Made by a program: the position numbers and the translations under genes. From assembly GCA_014728225.1 (NCBI GenBank), contig WJLX01000174.1, forward strand, positions 1 to 36,914: a DNA stretch of 36,914 bases. The letters run 5' to 3'. The notes beneath the pieces are model-generated. The model was given only the letters and a program-made list of their open reading frames with translations. It was not told the DNA's origin and ran no database searches. Origin of the DNA: Candidatus Coatesbacteria bacterium. Lineage in GTDB: Bacteria > RBG-13-66-14. Shown piece by piece: positions 60 through 33,651 of the stretch. Position 1 is the stretch's first letter. The number at the start of each line of letters is the position of its first letter.

Positions 60-252
60 GGGATACAGATATCTAACGTGCTCTGACACCGACGCTGAAG
101 GGCGAAATGGTCGTGCACGTTAGTTATCAGTTGCTCAGCTGAGCTCGAGTGTTTGATGGCGCACCGCCGCCGGCAGCCTGGGGAGGACTGATCCTGCGGC
201 TGGTAACCGGCGGCGCCGTTGACCAATAAACTACCCCCCCGGCCGAAATCAG
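60..252. other. Gene-free stretch before R1
   Basis: I see no convincing coding sequence here. The only structure is a 9-bp inverted repeat, CTAACGTGC (73-81) with GCACGTTAG (115-123), separated by 33 nt. Short ORFs in the area run into repeat element R1 and are not credible. Confidence 0.4.
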
Positions 253-441
253 CGGCGGGAGACCCGGGAAACCAGCTCGCTCCCCCACGAGCGATGAACT
301 CCAACCCCCGGAACCGGCACGGTTTTTGCATCTCGGCAACCGTTAAGCACTGAGATAACGGTTCGCCTCCGCAAAAACCGTGCCGGTTCCGGGGGTTGGG
401 GCTGACGAAGCGCCGTAATGGCTTCCCGGGGTCTCCCGCCG
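253..441 (-). repeat. Nested palindromic element R1
   Basis: Outer arms 253-270 and 423-441 pair over 18 bp with one bulged base. Inner arms 301-329 and 371-399 pair perfectly over 29 bp and contain the family core GGAACCGGCACGGTTTTTGC. The innermost stem is AACCGTT (338-344) with AACGGTT (357-363). The asymmetric segment reads GCATCTCGGC on the left and GCCTCCGC on the right, which I define as reverse orientation. The element lies 13 bp past the iscU stop codon. Confidence 0.9.
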
Positions 442-454
442 CCGGCTCGAACGG

Positions 455-3260: not shown

Positions 3261-3458
3261 CGGGGGAGTTTTGAAAAACAGCCCGCCGTGGGGGCGGTCT
3301 TCTGCAAGACCGCCCCGCCGGAACCGGCACGGTTTTTGCGGAGGCGGAGCGTTATCATCGTCAGTAACGCTCGCCGAGATGCAAAAACCGTGCCGGTTCC
3401 GGCGGGGCAGCCCGGCGGTGCCGCGAAAAGCTGTTGGGCTGTTTTCAAAACTCCCCCG
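3261..3458 (+). repeat. Nested palindromic element R2
   Basis: Outer arms 3261-3284 and 3436-3458 pair along their length with a single extra A/T and carry the GAAAAACAGCCC box. Inner arms 3312-3339 and 3381-3408 are a perfect 28-bp match containing the core. The innermost stem AGCGTTA (3348-3354) with TAACGCT (3365-3371) carries a paired C-to-G/G-to-C change against other copies. Forward orientation. A competing hairpin, GGGGCGGTCT (3291-3300) with AGACCGCCCC (3307-3316), overlaps the left inner arm. The element sits between two divergent promoters. Confidence 0.9.
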
Positions 3459-10336: not shown

Positions 10337-11326
10337 ATGCGGCCGGAGCTGCGGGACCACCTGCACCGTGGTCTGCGCGACAGCGCCGTCGACCTCGTCT
10401 TTCCCGCTGCCCGGGAACCGGCCGCCCTGCTCCCCCTGGTCGGCGCCGCCGCCGCCCTCGTCGGCTGGCGACCCACCGCCGAGCTGCTGGCCGCGGCGCG
10501 CTTCCTGCGCCTGTTCATCAACCCCGGCGCCGGCGTCCAGGGCATCGTCCACCTCTTCCGCGAACTTAACACCGGGCGCGAGCCCCCCGTCGTCCTGGTC
10601 AACGGCCACGGCAACGCCTGCTTCACCGCCCAGCACACCGTGGCCCTGCTGCTGGCGCTGACCAACCGCATCCTGCCCCACCACAACTGGCTCGCCGCCG
10701 GACGCTGGCGCACCGGCGACGCCGAGGCCGCCTCGCTGCCCCTGCGCGGCCGCCGCCTGGCCCTGCTGGGCTACGGTCACGTCAACCGTCGAGTCCACCG
10801 CCTCCTCGCCGGCTTCCCCCTCGAATTCGCCGCCCTGCGGCGCGACTGGCGGAACGCCGCGCAGGACCCGCCGACCCCGCTGCGCCGCTGCGGCACCGCC
10901 GAACTCGCCGAACTGCTGGACTGGGCCGACATCCTCGTCTGTTGCCTGCCCGAGACCTCGGCCACCCGCGGCCTGATCGGCCGTGACGAGCTGGTCCGCC
11001 TGGGCCGCCGCGGGCTGCTGGTCAACGTCGGCCGGGGTCCCGTCGTCGACGAGAACGCCCTCTACGAGGCCCTCGACCAGGGACTCATCGCCGGCGCCGC
11101 CCTCGACGTCTGGTACGACTACCAACCCGCCGCCGACAGCACCGGACGCCGTCACCCCTGGCACCGGCCCTTCAACGAACTGAACAACGTCGTCCTCTCG
11201 CCCCACCGCGCCGCCTCGCCCTTCGATGACCTCGGGCGCTGGAACGAGGTCATCGAGAACCTGAAACGCCTGGCCGCCGGAAGGGACGACTTCCTCAACG
11301 TCGTCGATCTCGAGCTGGGCTACTAG
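10337..11326 (+). CDS. D-isomer-specific 2-hydroxyacid dehydrogenase-like protein
   Basis: The 329-residue protein has the two-domain layout of NAD-dependent D-2-hydroxyacid dehydrogenases, which interconvert 2-oxo acids and D-2-hydroxy acids. The nucleotide loop reads GYGHVN, where the third glycine of GxGxxG is asparagine. The NVGRGPVVDE segment carries the catalytic arginine and SPHRAA the catalytic histidine. In the usual DVFxxEP motif this protein has DVWYDYQP, so the catalytic glutamate seems to be glutamine. The reaction may therefore be changed or lost. The frame is open upstream with family-like residues (RRVVFLRP) but without a standard start codon, so the ATG at 10337 is tentative. 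The stop codon overlaps the outer arm of R3. Confidence 0.82.
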   Translation: MRPELRDHLHRGLRDSAVDLVFPAAREPAALLPLVGAAAALVGWRPTAELLAAARFLRLFINPGAGVQGIVHLFRELNTGREPPVVLVNGHGNACFTAQHTVALLLALTNRILPHHNWLAAGRWRTGDAEAASLPLRGRRLALLGYGHVNRRVHRLLAGFPLEFAALRRDWRNAAQDPPTPLRRCGTAELAELLDWADILVCCLPETSATRGLIGRDELVRLGRRGLLVNVGRGPVVDENALYEALDQGLIAGAALDVWYDYQPAADSTGRRHPWHRPFNELNNVVLSPHRAASPFDDLGRWNEVIENLKRLAAGRDDFLNVVDLELGY

Positions 11327-11514
11327 CCGCCGTTGAAATACAAACGCCTGAACCGCCGCAAGACCTTCATCTACCACGCCGGAACCGGCACGGTTTTTGC
11401 GGAGGCGAACCGGCCTGAAGACTTCGAAGACCGCCGAGATGCAAAAACCGTGCCGGTTCCGGCGGCGCTGATTCAACAACGCTGCCGAGAACAAACGGTC
11501 TTTCAACGGCGGCT
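11325..11514 (+). repeat. Nested palindromic element R3
   Basis: Outer arms AGCCGCCGTTGAAA (11325-11338) and its perfect complement (11501-11514) flank inner arms 11377-11400 and 11441-11464 (24 bp, perfect, with the family core). Forward orientation: GCGGAGGC left, GCCGAGATGC right. The innermost stem is weaker than in other copies. The left outer arm starts inside the stop codon of the dehydrogenase gene. The element separates that gene from the BtrH-like gene on the same strand. Confidence 0.9.
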
Positions 11515-11592: not shown

Positions 11593-12555
11593 ATGGAGGT
11601 CGAACTGCGGGAACTGCGTTGGGTGCCACGCTGGACGAGCCTGCTGGGCTGTCTGGAGGGCTGCCTGAGATTCCTGGGGCGGGAGGTGGAGCCGGTCTGG
11701 CTCTTCGGCGCCACGGGCCACGCCTTCGTCATCAACATCCACCGGCGGGACCTCTGCCCCAGCGGCCCGACGGCCTGGGATACGACGGGACTCTACGAAC
11801 TGGGCCGCCAAGCCGGCTTCACCACCGAGGCCGTATTCGCCACGCTCAACCAGCCCCATTTCGCCGCCAAACGCGTCGAGGCCTGGCATCGCGCCCAACG
11901 GGCCCTGAAAGCCGGCAAGCCCTGCATCGCCTGGGAGCTGCAGGTCCCCGAGTATTACATCATTAATGGATACGATGAGCTGGGTTACCACTACTCAGGA
12001 CCGCTGGCCGAAGAGAGCGCCGGACCCAAGGCCTGGGGCGAGCTGGGCGACAGCGAGATCGGCGTGCTCAACCTCATGATCGTTGAACTCAACGAACCGG
12101 CGCCGGAACGCGAACTCATCCACGCGGCGCTCGCCTTCGCCCTGCGCTTCGCGGCGAAGGCCAATCCCTACGTCCTCGAGGCTTACGCGGCCGGTCCGGC
12201 GGCCTACGAGGTCTGGCGTAACCATCTGGCGTCCGGCGACCCCAACCCCCACGGCACCGCCATAAACGCCCAGGTTTGGGCCGAGTGCCGTGGTTTCGCT
12301 CCCGCTTTCCTCCGGACGGCCGCCGGTCGCCTACCGGCCCTGGCCGGCGAGCTGGAAAAGGCGGCCCGAGAATACGATAGGGTCGCCACCGAACTCGGCC
12401 GGGTCGCCGAGCTGTTCCCCTTCCATGACGATCAGGAGGCCAACGCTCGCGACCGTCGGCTCCTCGACGAGGCCGTCGCTTGTTTGGAACGGGCGAGAAC
12501 AGCCGAGCTCGCCGGCCTGGCCAGGCTGGAACAGCTCGAGGTGGTGTTGAGGTGA
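11593..12555 (+). CDS. BtrH-like / cysteine-peptidase-fold protein of unknown substrate
   Basis: The 320-residue cytosolic protein resembles the butirosin biosynthesis protein H (BtrH) N-terminal family. It has a papain-like fold with an early cysteine-rich start (SLLGCLEGCLRFLG, residues 17-30). The HAFVINIH segment is near residue 43, and GKPCIAWELQVPEYYIINGY is followed by GYHYSGP at about 114-140. BtrH moves an acyl group from a carrier protein to an aminoglycoside, and most relatives are uncharacterised. The C-terminal half is helical, with GDSEIGVLNLMIVEL and a bundle-like region. GGGGAGGA lies 6 nt before the ATG. Its stop overlaps the start of the GNAT gene in GTGA, so the two are translated together and may modify the same compound. 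Which Cys and His are catalytic is not certain. Confidence 0.6.
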   Translation: MEVELRELRWVPRWTSLLGCLEGCLRFLGREVEPVWLFGATGHAFVINIHRRDLCPSGPTAWDTTGLYELGRQAGFTTEAVFATLNQPHFAAKRVEAWHRAQRALKAGKPCIAWELQVPEYYIINGYDELGYHYSGPLAEESAGPKAWGELGDSEIGVLNLMIVELNEPAPERELIHAALAFALRFAAKANPYVLEAYAAGPAAYEVWRNHLASGDPNPHGTAINAQVWAECRGFAPAFLRTAAGRLPALAGELEKAAREYDRVATELGRVAELFPFHDDQEANARDRRLLDEAVACLERARTAELAGLARLEQLEVVLR

Positions 12556-12983
12556 AGCGCACGGCGATCAGCTTCTCCAGCGATCGTTCAACCTTGACCC
12601 CCGCCGATCTCCAGCCCTTCTTCGTCGGCTGGCCCAATCCGCCGGAGGAGGCTGTCCGGCTGCAAATCCTCCGCCGAGCAGACCTGGTGATTCTGGCTCG
12701 GGTTCACGGTCGACTGGTCGGCTTCGTCACCTGCCTGACCGACGGCCTGCTCAGCGCTTTCATCCCCCTGCTCGAGGTGCTGCCCGAGCACCAGGGACGC
12801 GGGATCGGATCGCAGCTGATCCAGCGTCTGCTGGACGAGCTGGGACCGCTGTACGCCGTCGACGCCGTCTGCGATCCGCCGACGGCGACCCTCTACGAAA
12901 ACCTGGGTTTCACCCGACTTTGCGGTATGGCCCGCCGGGAACTCAGCCTTCAACGGGGAAGAACACCGGCGAGCGAGCGTTGA
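12552..12983 (+). CDS. GNAT-family N-acetyltransferase
   Basis: The 143-residue protein is a GCN5-related acetyltransferase that would transfer an acetyl group from acetyl-CoA to an amine. Motif A reads LEVLPEHQGRGIGSQLIQRL (about residues 74-93), with the Q-G-R-G-I-G acetyl-CoA pyrophosphate loop. ATLYENLGF near residue 115 is the usual C-terminal motif. A GTG start at 12552 is preferred because it overlaps the previous stop (GTGA). An earlier in-frame ATG would lie deep inside the BtrH-like gene. The last eight codons (RTPASER and stop) form part of the left outer arm of R4, so the 3' end of this gene is mirrored 150 bp downstream. The substrate is unknown. Confidence 0.85.
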   Translation: MKRTAISFSSDRSTLTPADLQPFFVGWPNPPEEAVRLQILRRADLVILARVHGRLVGFVTCLTDGLLSAFIPLLEVLPEHQGRGIGSQLIQRLLDELGPLYAVDAVCDPPTATLYENLGFTRLCGMARRELSLQRGRTPASER

Positions 12984-13175
12984 AAAACAGGCCCGCCACC
13001 GACTAAATCCGCCGGAACCTTAGCCCCGGAACTGGCACGGTTTTTGCATCTCGGTGACCGTTGGCGCGATGCTAACGGTTCACCTCCGCAAAAACCGTGC
13101 CAGTTCCGGGGCAAGTGTCGGTGGCGGCTCAGCGAGCGGGGGAGCCTGTTTTTCAACGCTCGCTCGCCGGTGTTC
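12961..13175 (-). repeat. Nested palindromic element R4, the most complete copy
   Basis: Three stems nest perfectly. The outer arms 12961-12992 and 13144-13175 pair over 32 bp. The middle arms CCGCCACCGAC (12993-13003) and GTCGGTGGCGG (13117-13127) pair over 11 bp. The inner arms 13023-13047 and 13088-13112 pair over 25 bp. The innermost stem is ACCGTT (13057-13062) with AACGGT (13074-13079). The inner stem has ACTGG paired with CCAGT where the other copies have ACCGG/CCGGT, a compensatory pair. Reverse orientation. The left outer arm includes the last 23 bases of the GNAT gene. Confidence 0.95.
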
Positions 13176-13209
13176 TCGAGGGTTGAGCGAGCCCCGCAGC
13201 GCCTGTTAA

Positions 13210-13231
13210 AACCGGCCCCGCAGGGCCGGTT
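13210..13231. terminator. Hairpin between R4 and the M23 peptidase gene
   Basis: AACCGGCCC (13210-13218) pairs perfectly with GGGCCGGTT (13223-13231) around CGCA. A-rich DNA precedes it and T-rich DNA follows on the plus strand, so it may act in both directions between the convergent genes. Confidence 0.6.
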
Positions 13232-13269
13232 GCTAGTTATGGGATGAGTGCGTAGTCCAGGGTACTCGC

Positions 13270-14370
13270 CTAGGGTTCGTCGGCGGCGGCATGGTCGAGC
13301 TTGACGTCGCCGAAGTGCAGCGGATCATCCTCGGCGGGGTTCATTTCGTGCTCGATGTTGGTCATGTCGAGATCGCCGCTGTTGAAGTCGTCGCTGATCT
13401 CGAGCTCCAGCGGTCCCTCCTCGAGGACGGCCTGGTTCTCTTCTTCTTTGGTGGGGGTGAAGGTGAACTGTCGGGCGGTCTGGATGGGGTCCTGATCCCC
13501 GAGGATATACAGTTCGGGATCGACGTTGATGCCGTTGTGCAGGACCTCGTAGTGCAGGTGGGTTCCGGTTGAGCGGCCGGTACAGCCGACGAGGGCGATG
13601 ACCTCGCCGCGTCTGACGTGATCGCCGGGTTTGACGTAGAGGTTGCGGCAGTGGCCGTAGCGGGTCTGGTAACCGTAACCGTGGTCGATACGGATCAGCA
13701 GTCCGTAGGCTCCGGCGGCCCGGGCGACGACGACGACGCCGTCGGCGGCGGCGACGATCTTGCCGTTGCCCCGGGGTACCAGATCGACGCCGTTATGGAA
13801 TTCGGTGCCGCCGGTAATCGGGCTGCGGCGGTAACCGAAACCGGAGCAATTGTGGGCGTAGGGCAGGGGATTGAGCGAGGGCAGGTGCTTGAGGTAATCG
13901 TTGCGCTGTTCGTTGAGCCGGACCAGCTCGCTGAGCTGATTGCGCTGGCGGTCGATGACGGCGCCGGCGTGGAGCAGGTCGACCTGGAAACGGTTGCCCG
14001 CGGCCAGGGCCTGCCCGAGTTCAGGACCACCGATGCCGACACCCTCGCCGAGTCCGGGATCGAAGCCGTGGTAGAGGCGCAGGGTGTCGTTGACGGGTTC
14101 GAATTCCTCGGCCCGGGCCAGCAACTCTTCGAGATGGAGCTCGAGCTCGGCGAGTTCCTCGCGCTGGCGGCTGTCGAGGTACTCCAACTCGGAGAGCTGG
14201 TGGAAATCGACGAGTTGGCTGAAGTAGACGACGACGAAGGTGATCGCACCGAGGACGGCCAGGGAAAGCAGGCCGCCGATAATGACCACTAGCGCCTTGC
14301 CCAGGCGCGAACGGCCGACATCGGCGCCGCGGTGGTGTTCGACGAGTACGGTAACGTCGCTCAGCTTCAT
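13270..14370 (-). CDS. M23 (LytM-type) metallopeptidase with membrane anchor and coiled coil
   Basis: This 366-residue protein is a candidate peptidoglycan endopeptidase or divisome activator. A short basic cytoplasmic start is followed by one membrane segment (about 28-50), a long acidic coiled coil (about 55-95), and an M23 domain from about residue 175. The zinc ligands are visible: HNGVDL gives His and Asp, and HLHYEV gives the last His; GHCRNL holds a further conserved His. The catalytic domain looks intact, unlike EnvC/NlpD-type proteins that lost ligands. A Glu/Asp-rich C-terminal tail of about 70 residues follows and is not part of the family. The architecture resembles the coiled-coil M23 proteins of cell-division or cell-shape systems. 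It stands alone, with an AT-rich upstream region. Confidence 0.88.
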   Translation of the reverse strand: MKLSDVTVLVEHHRGADVGRSRLGKALVVIIGGLLSLAVLGAITFVVVYFSQLVDFHQLSELEYLDSRQREELAELELHLEELLARAEEFEPVNDTLRLYHGFDPGLGEGVGIGGPELGQALAAGNRFQVDLLHAGAVIDRQRNQLSELVRLNEQRNDYLKHLPSLNPLPYAHNCSGFGYRRSPITGGTEFHNGVDLVPRGNGKIVAAADGVVVVARAAGAYGLLIRIDHGYGYQTRYGHCRNLYVKPGDHVRRGEVIALVGCTGRSTGTHLHYEVLHNGINVDPELYILGDQDPIQTARQFTFTPTKEEENQAVLEEGPLELEISDDFNSGDLDMTNIEHEMNPAEDDPLHFGDVKLDHAAADEP

Positions 14371-18480: not shown

Positions 18481-18690
18481 TCGGCGTCCCCCCGCGGCGA
18501 CCCACGCCCTCCACCCCGCTTCACCGACACCACCCCGACCCGGCCCCGGAACCGGCACGGTTTTTGCGGAGGCGCAGCGTTGCCGCCGCACCAACGGGCG
18601 CCGAGATGCAAAAACCGTGCCGGTTCCGGGGCCGGGGAAGCGATATCCTGCACGGTACGGGGAGTCTAGTCGCCGCGGGCGGGGCGCCGA
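18481..18690 (+). repeat. Nested palindromic element R5
   Basis: Outer arms 18481-18501 and 18669-18690 pair with one bulge and one mismatch. Inner arms 18539-18567 and 18608-18636 pair perfectly over 29 bp and contain the core. The innermost stem is short, CGTTG (18578-18582) with CAACG (18592-18596). Forward orientation. It lacks the GAAAAAC box seen in several other outer arms. It lies between two divergent promoters, and its right end is only 9 bp from the -35 box of the regulator gene. Confidence 0.85.
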
Positions 18691-22954: not shown

Positions 22955-23152
22955 CCCGGGCGATCCTGGAAAAACCCACAGTAATCCGGCTCGCGCTGCA
23001 GCCGGACACGCCGGAACCGGCACGGTTTTTGCGGAGGCCGACCGTTATCCTCGTTCGTAACGGTCGCCGAGATGCAAAAACCGTGCCGGTTCCGGCGGTC
23101 GGGGATACCGGGGGGCGCATGGTGGTGGGCTGTTTTTCCAGGATCGCCCGGG
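22955..23152 (+). repeat. Nested palindromic element R6
   Basis: Outer arms 22955-22978 and 23126-23152 pair with a small bulge and share the GGAAAAAC/GTTTTTCC box. Inner arms 23009-23032 and 23074-23097 pair perfectly over 24 bp with the core. The innermost stem GACCGTTA (23040-23047) with TAACGGTC (23058-23065) is 8 bp. Forward orientation. It lies between convergent genes, 10 bp from the stop of the minus-strand GT90 gene. Confidence 0.92.
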
Positions 23153-27532: not shown

Positions 27533-27721
27533 CGCGCCGCAGACCGCCGAAAACGAGCGGACACTCGAGACCCCGCGCCGCCGGAACCGGCACGGTTTTT
27601 GCGGAGGCGGACCGTTGCCGACCCCTCCAACGGTTGCCGAGATGCAAAAACCGTGCCGGTTCCGGCGGCGCTCCAGGCGTCGTTAACGCCGAAGCCGCAT
27701 TTTTCGGCGGTCTGCGGCGCG
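27533..27721 (+). repeat. Nested palindromic element R7
   Basis: Outer arms 27533-27553 and 27701-27721 pair perfectly over 21 bp. Inner arms 27575-27602 and 27644-27671 pair perfectly over 28 bp and contain the core. The innermost stem is ACCGTTG (27611-27617) with CAACGGT (27628-27634), changed in step compared with ACCGTTA/TAACGGT in R6 and R8. Forward orientation. It lies upstream of the DUF5683-like gene, between divergent genes. Confidence 0.92.
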
Positions 27722-33457: not shown

Positions 33458-33651
33458 CCCCGCGCTCCGGAAAAACGGCCTCTTCGACGGAGCCGTTCGT
33501 CAGCCGACGGCGCCGGAACCGGCACGGTTTTTGCATGTCAGCCACCGTTAGAGCTCTTGTAACGGTCGGCTTCCGCAAAAACCGTGCCGGTTCCGGCGCA
33601 GCGGTAACCATCGGCGGGCCGTCTTGCCGGGGTTTTTTCCGGGGCGCGGGG
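33458..33651 (-). repeat. Nested palindromic element R8
   Basis: Outer arms 33458-33475 and 33634-33651 pair with one T-G wobble and hold the GGAAAAAC/GTTTTTTCC box. A short middle stem, ACGGCC (33475-33480) with GGCCGT (33617-33622), follows. Inner arms 33510-33534 and 33575-33599 pair perfectly over 25 bp with the core. The innermost stem is ACCGTTA (33544-33550) with TAACGGT (33560-33566). Reverse orientation, with GCATGTCAGCC and GGCTTCCGC as slightly diverged asymmetric segments. It lies between convergent genes. Confidence 0.92.

Follow-up and report, generated by a model that had tools for sequence, protein, structure and literature searches.

Short palindromic repeats dispersed between bacterial genes have been described under several names. 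REPINs, REP doublets associated with RAYT, occur as hundreds of short extragenic inverted-repeat units forming a hairpin in ssDNA or mRNA, and are lineage-specific in sequence and probably non-autonomous (PMC3116915). Prokaryotic MITEs, ERIC sequences and Rickettsia palindromic elements are likewise small intergenic palindromic repeats, often located near gene 3' ends and occasionally fused in frame to a gene (PMC10969869). A different route to matched arms is template switching, described in RNA genes and in genes of yeast; between inverted repeats, its published footprint is the homogenisation of the arms into perfect stems by arm-to-arm copying together with inversion of the enclosed spacer (PMC8604942, PMC8794818). 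In Nematomorpha mitochondria, coding sequence itself constitutes one arm of perfect inverted repeats, which are long and have both arms coding (PMC6649704).

The repeat family described here, with at least 236 exact-core copies in a 2.96-Mb Coatesbacteria metagenome-assembled genome (MAG), shares the traits listed above for REPINs and corresponds to their definition (an inverted REP doublet, abundant and extragenic) by its 236 exact cores and its placement at gene ends. Unlike REPINs, its units reach ~190-215 bp and comprise two stems and a locus-unique spacer, their arms covary within each copy, and a Y1 transposase is found neither in this genome nor in the sister genus. Small, intergenic, palindromic and often close to gene 3' ends, with an occasional in-frame fusion, they resemble MITEs, ERIC and Rickettsia elements but have no target-site duplication and, the shared motif aside, no fixed terminal repeat sequence, and their internal body is homologous only in the inner 40 nt. 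Perfect stems and inversion of the enclosed segment are common to this family and to template-switch hairpins, the present repeats being bacterial and dispersed. As in Nematomorpha, one copy, R4, has coding sequence as an arm of a perfect inverted repeat, but only one of its arms is coding and the encoded tail is unconserved in homologues. The R4 pattern is real and unusual, and the element is akin to palindromic intergenic repeats, of which it is a variant.

Eight copies (R1-R8) are located within the window, i.e., the whole stretch of 36,914 nt that was analysed (see table). Each copy is built as an outer arm, a spacer of ~30 nt, an inner stem CCGGAACYGGCACGGTTTTTGC and an inner segment of 40-41 nt, followed by the mirror image. 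Statistics were derived from 861 kb of the 2.96 Mb, partly from contigs picked because they contained copies; the density in these 861 kb is 0.107 copies per kb. The outer arms, whose consensus is about GACCKTTGAAAAACAGCC when read 5' to 3' into the element, score at least 14 in 86% of 87 copies in these 861 kb versus 1.9% for left flanks matched with right flanks taken from other copies, and are thus not due to chance. Outside the cores, these 861 kb contain hardly any instance of the motif (two look-alikes, both coding), which is therefore not a free target motif. Judged from the copies compared, the outer arm is a family motif and not an arbitrary flank, yet the arms vary between copies and fray outward. 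Spacer sequences compared between copies show no similarity beyond that of shuffled sequence; their length is roughly kept.

Coordinates of R4, of the GNAT gene which it overlaps and of the other copies in the window
Feature	Position	Strand	Basis or remark
GNAT acetyltransferase gene (PF00583)	12552..12983	+	ORF; codons 137-143 and TGA within R4 left arm
R4 left outer arm, 33 nt, AGAACACCGGCGAGCGAGCGTTGAAAAACAGGC	12960..12992	+	arm comparison
Family motif GTTGAAAAAC, contains GNAT stop codon	12979..12988	+	motif comparison across copies
R4 left spacer	12993..13022	.	sequence unrelated between copies, length roughly kept
R4 left inner stem GCCCCGGAACTGGCACGGTTTTTGC	13023..13047	+	stem comparison
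R4 inner segment, R orientation	13048..13087	-	descent common to copies
R4 right inner stem	13088..13112	+	stem comparison
R4 right spacer	13113..13143	.	spacer comparison
R4 right outer arm, exact inverse of 12960-12992	13144..13176	-	arm comparison
R1	252..442	.	outer arms 252-265/429-442
R2	3261..3458	.	outer arms 3261-3277/3442-3458
R3	11325..11514	.	outer arms 11325-11338/11501-11514; starts in dehydrogenase stop codon
R5	18491..18679	.	weak outer arms (11 nt)
R6	22955..23152	.	outer arms 22955-22975/23132-23152
R7	27533..27721	.	outer arms 27533-27553/27701-27721
R8	33458..33651	.	outer arms 33458-33475/33634-33651

With genes called by codon bias and no gene finder, at least one neighbouring gene was found to end towards the copy in 73 of 80 copies. 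The arms often begin 0-30 nt past one stop codon, the distance to the other being 50-100 nt, and elements of the family seldom overlap coding sequence. A dependence of element orientation on the nearer gene was rejected, the counts being close to even; element orientation itself is 42:45. At several loci, read by eye, an ordinary hairpin terminator is located between gene and element. Copies are never less than 1.2 kb apart in the window and L016-L075, where 3.95-4.8 kb, a bin chosen after looking, accounts for 15 of 59 spacings versus 5.3 expected.

In R4, the initial annotation had pointed to an inverted copy of the end of the GNAT gene on the far side of the element. This match (12961-12983 with 13153-13175) is exact, and the full arms extend to perfect reverse complements of 33 nt (12960-12992 with 13144-13176), the longest uninterrupted outer arm among the 80 copies with a detectable arm. 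Starting at codon 137, the left arm contains the last 24 bases of the gene, including its TGA stop codon (12981-12983). The arm score of 33 compares with a maximum of 17 in the control that matches flanks across copies, and a search of the genome allowing up to three mismatches returned no second occurrence of the arm 30-mer. The stable hairpin envisaged at the 3' end of the GNAT mRNA is borne out as a prediction, with a predicted R4 RNA fold of -173.7 kcal/mol (z -15). It was also correctly noted that the R3 arm begins, at 11325, inside the TAG of a dehydrogenase gene; this overlap of 2 nt is ordinary.

The GNAT C-terminus carries the signature of the family. R4 fits the outer-arm motif at 16 of 18 positions, the last nine coding bases of the gene (GAG CGT TGA) are part of this family-wide motif, and the stop codon is the TGA of CGTTGAAAAAC; another gene, at L034:3713, also has the motif TGA as its stop codon and reads it in the frame used by GNAT. 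Distant homologues were used to compare gene ends because no GNAT orthologue was found in 14 relatives at 1e-8; as none was found from the same phylum, an element-free GNAT site was not encountered. The ends of six homologues correspond to query residues ~135, 136, 137, 137, 140 and 140, that of the nearest one (53% identity) to residue 137, the query reaching 143; they thus fall before or within the arm codons. Since the homologues end at 135-140 while the arm encodes residues 137-143 plus TGA, the last codons and the stop of GNAT were most likely supplied by R4 and not by the ancestral gene. The outermost ~12-15 bases of the R4 arm may nevertheless be mirrored, because arms pair in a locus-specific manner beyond the family motif.

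Across the family, the two sides of a copy change together. In 59 anchored copies, outer arms are paired at 94.9% versus 64.0% expected, with a maximum of 68.7% in 2000 permutations; these copies were selected for having arms, so that the absolute percentage is somewhat inflated, the contrast being far beyond the permutations. In the same copies, departures from the arm consensus comprise 165 cells changed on both sides together and 39 unpaired. Pairing continues past the motif, with 64.6% paired in columns 15-21 versus 36.5% expected. In the inner stem, 799 of 800 pairs in columns 0-9 are Watson-Crick, and column 2 is C-C in 45 copies, T-T in 35 and mixed in none of the 80. The spacers adjoining the arms are not homogenised. 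Selection on RNA pairing is expected to proceed via G.U pairs; in the outer arms these amount to 0.8%, with 1.2% A.C, versus 5.2% G.U in tRNA stems of the same genome. RNA wobble covariation is thus not seen in the arms, and paired covariation by itself is no proof of a selected RNA structure. From these sequence patterns, and not from observed mutations, we infer that arm-to-arm DNA copying by template switching maintains matched arms.

The inner segment follows a history of its own. Its common descent is apparent from 25 copy pairs sharing at least 36 of 40 bases versus 0.2 expected, and from 29 pairs versus 2.0 expected in the 41-nt class. Neither the outer arms nor the two spacers track this descent (permutation p 0.72, 0.35 and 0.67), and at stem column 2, located three bases beyond the core 12-mer, 52% of close pairs agree versus 50% overall. 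Inner segments of neighbours within 6 kb are slightly more alike (p 0.008), which fits local conversion. Either the inner segment is swapped between sites, or the turnover of arms and spacers is far more rapid than its own.

In the sister genus of the same family (G001), 153 copies have the same plan with a different inner stem, GTTGGCACRTTTCTTGC, and outer arms such as CCGAGACCTTCGCCAAACAG, which are paired in 17 of 19 copies versus 3.5% in the control. The GGCACNNTTYTTGC core and the two stems are kept in both genera, the sequences being otherwise different. The spacers of the G001 copies differ in length (about 35 versus 46 nt), and relative to them the inner segment occurs in either orientation (~8:9, a small sample). 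Covarying arms devoid of intermediates and inversion of the enclosed segment, the latter from this small G001 sample, are thus both found here, and are read as template-switch footprints since published cases produce both. Where orthologous gene ends allowed a comparison, about eight elements face an empty site in the other genus, and a single gene end is occupied in both; the distribution of the element is therefore lineage-specific. The doubly occupied gene end (L035:14343 and L155:351) bears different stems in the two genera. A lone copy of the type studied here occurs in G001 (L079:1490-1590; C353:5992); its inner stem is extended and it lacks A-tract outer arms. A lone G001-type copy is present in this genome (C10:1900-1970). 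In G003, another genus of G001's family, nested inverted repeats are almost absent.

Candidate mobilisers were sought. Y1_Tnp (PF01797, RAYT) is absent from this genome and from G001, whose MAGs are ~97% and 99% complete, and a search for a reverse transcriptase found none. The integron integrase IntI (TIGR02249) gave weak sub-cutoff matches only, as in all 14 control genomes. No autonomous partner element was found among half-sites in 29% of the genome, and direct repeats, which would indicate a target-site duplication, are not in excess outside the arms. Rfam yields nothing for the window at gathering thresholds. We also rejected a model in which a pre-existing outer hairpin receives an insertion in its loop, as no unoccupied outer-arm pair is found, the two coding look-alikes being the sole candidates outside the cores, and no unoccupied inner palindrome either.

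R4 is probably best explained as a lineage-specific miniature palindromic intergenic repeat, inserted over the GNAT 3' end, whose arms are matched by copying at the DNA level. A REPIN-, MITE- or ERIC-like repeat would have spread in the two genera separately and for the most part at gene ends, and R4 would have landed over the 3' end of GNAT, its left outer arm replacing or extending the gene end with seven codons and a TGA owned by the element. Template switching or hairpin-mediated repair at replication would then rewrite one arm from the other, a process that can flip the enclosed segment, while the unpaired spacers would drift freely. A palindromic repeat of this kind would be able to rewrite the end of a protein. 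Against this explanation stand the descent of the inner segment, which is not followed by arms, spacers or stem column 2 and for which whole-unit transposition predicts otherwise, the failure to find a target-site duplication, Y1 transposase or reverse transcriptase, and the spacers beside the arms, which are not homogenised. In a further reading, which we regard as improbable, the moving unit would be only the inner segment and its immediate stem (~68 nt), swapped among sites or brought to them, stems and outer arms being written or rewritten at the destination; every locus would then build its own matched arms around the arriving cassette.

The main competing explanation, less probable but plausible, is that arms are kept paired by selection, a protein acting on the folded ssDNA or cruciform and compensatory changes being selected with no arm copying; REP hairpins are acted on in this way by RAYT. 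This would account for the conservation of architecture, motif and spacer length despite unconserved spacer sequence, and for the persistence of two stems and the GGCACNNTTYTTGC core in two genera of different sequence. However, single substitutions should leave intermediates, of which stem column 2 has none, pairing runs past the conserved motif, and free inversion of the inner segment is not predicted. Selection for an mRNA structure, a 3' hairpin ending transcription or protecting the message, would suit both the genes ending towards most copies (73 of 80) and the predicted fold of R4 (z -15). It is nonetheless unlikely, as G.U is not enriched over A.C in the arms, no terminator-like site (GC stem, short loop and T-run) is found in 12900-13320, ordinary terminators lie between gene and element at several loci, and element orientation is even.

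The initial annotation had favoured the copying of existing flank into the element, i.e., an ancestral GNAT tail copied outward into the right arm. That the R4 arm is the longest of 80, extending ~12-15 nt beyond the usual arm end and inside codons, and that locus-specific pairing past the motif is general, speak for it, but the stop and the final part of the tail belong to the family motif, coding overlap is rare in the family and the homologues end at 135-140, essentially the outcome named in advance as contradicting a flank origin. Such an origin of the GNAT tail is therefore doubtful and flank copying is probably wrong as its source; what survives is the notion of copying, between the arms themselves, as suggested by their locus-specific pairing past the motif. 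Finally, an assembly or amplification artefact might be suspected in a MAG of 181 contigs, some of which end inside elements, but is highly improbable given that the arms are specific to each locus in hundreds of copies and that a separately deposited MAG has this architecture with a different stem.

With hundreds of replicates in one genome and 153 in its sister genus, in which arms change together without mismatched intermediates, the family makes the upkeep of perfect stems, by compensatory selection or by template-switch copying, testable in bacteria. Another, smaller hairpin family, consisting of GCGGTTNTTGC, a variable GC stem and GCAANAACCGTGACGG, is also present in this genome and in G001 (L020:12252, L036:1848, L047:2151 and L077-L081), its stems being matched though variable.
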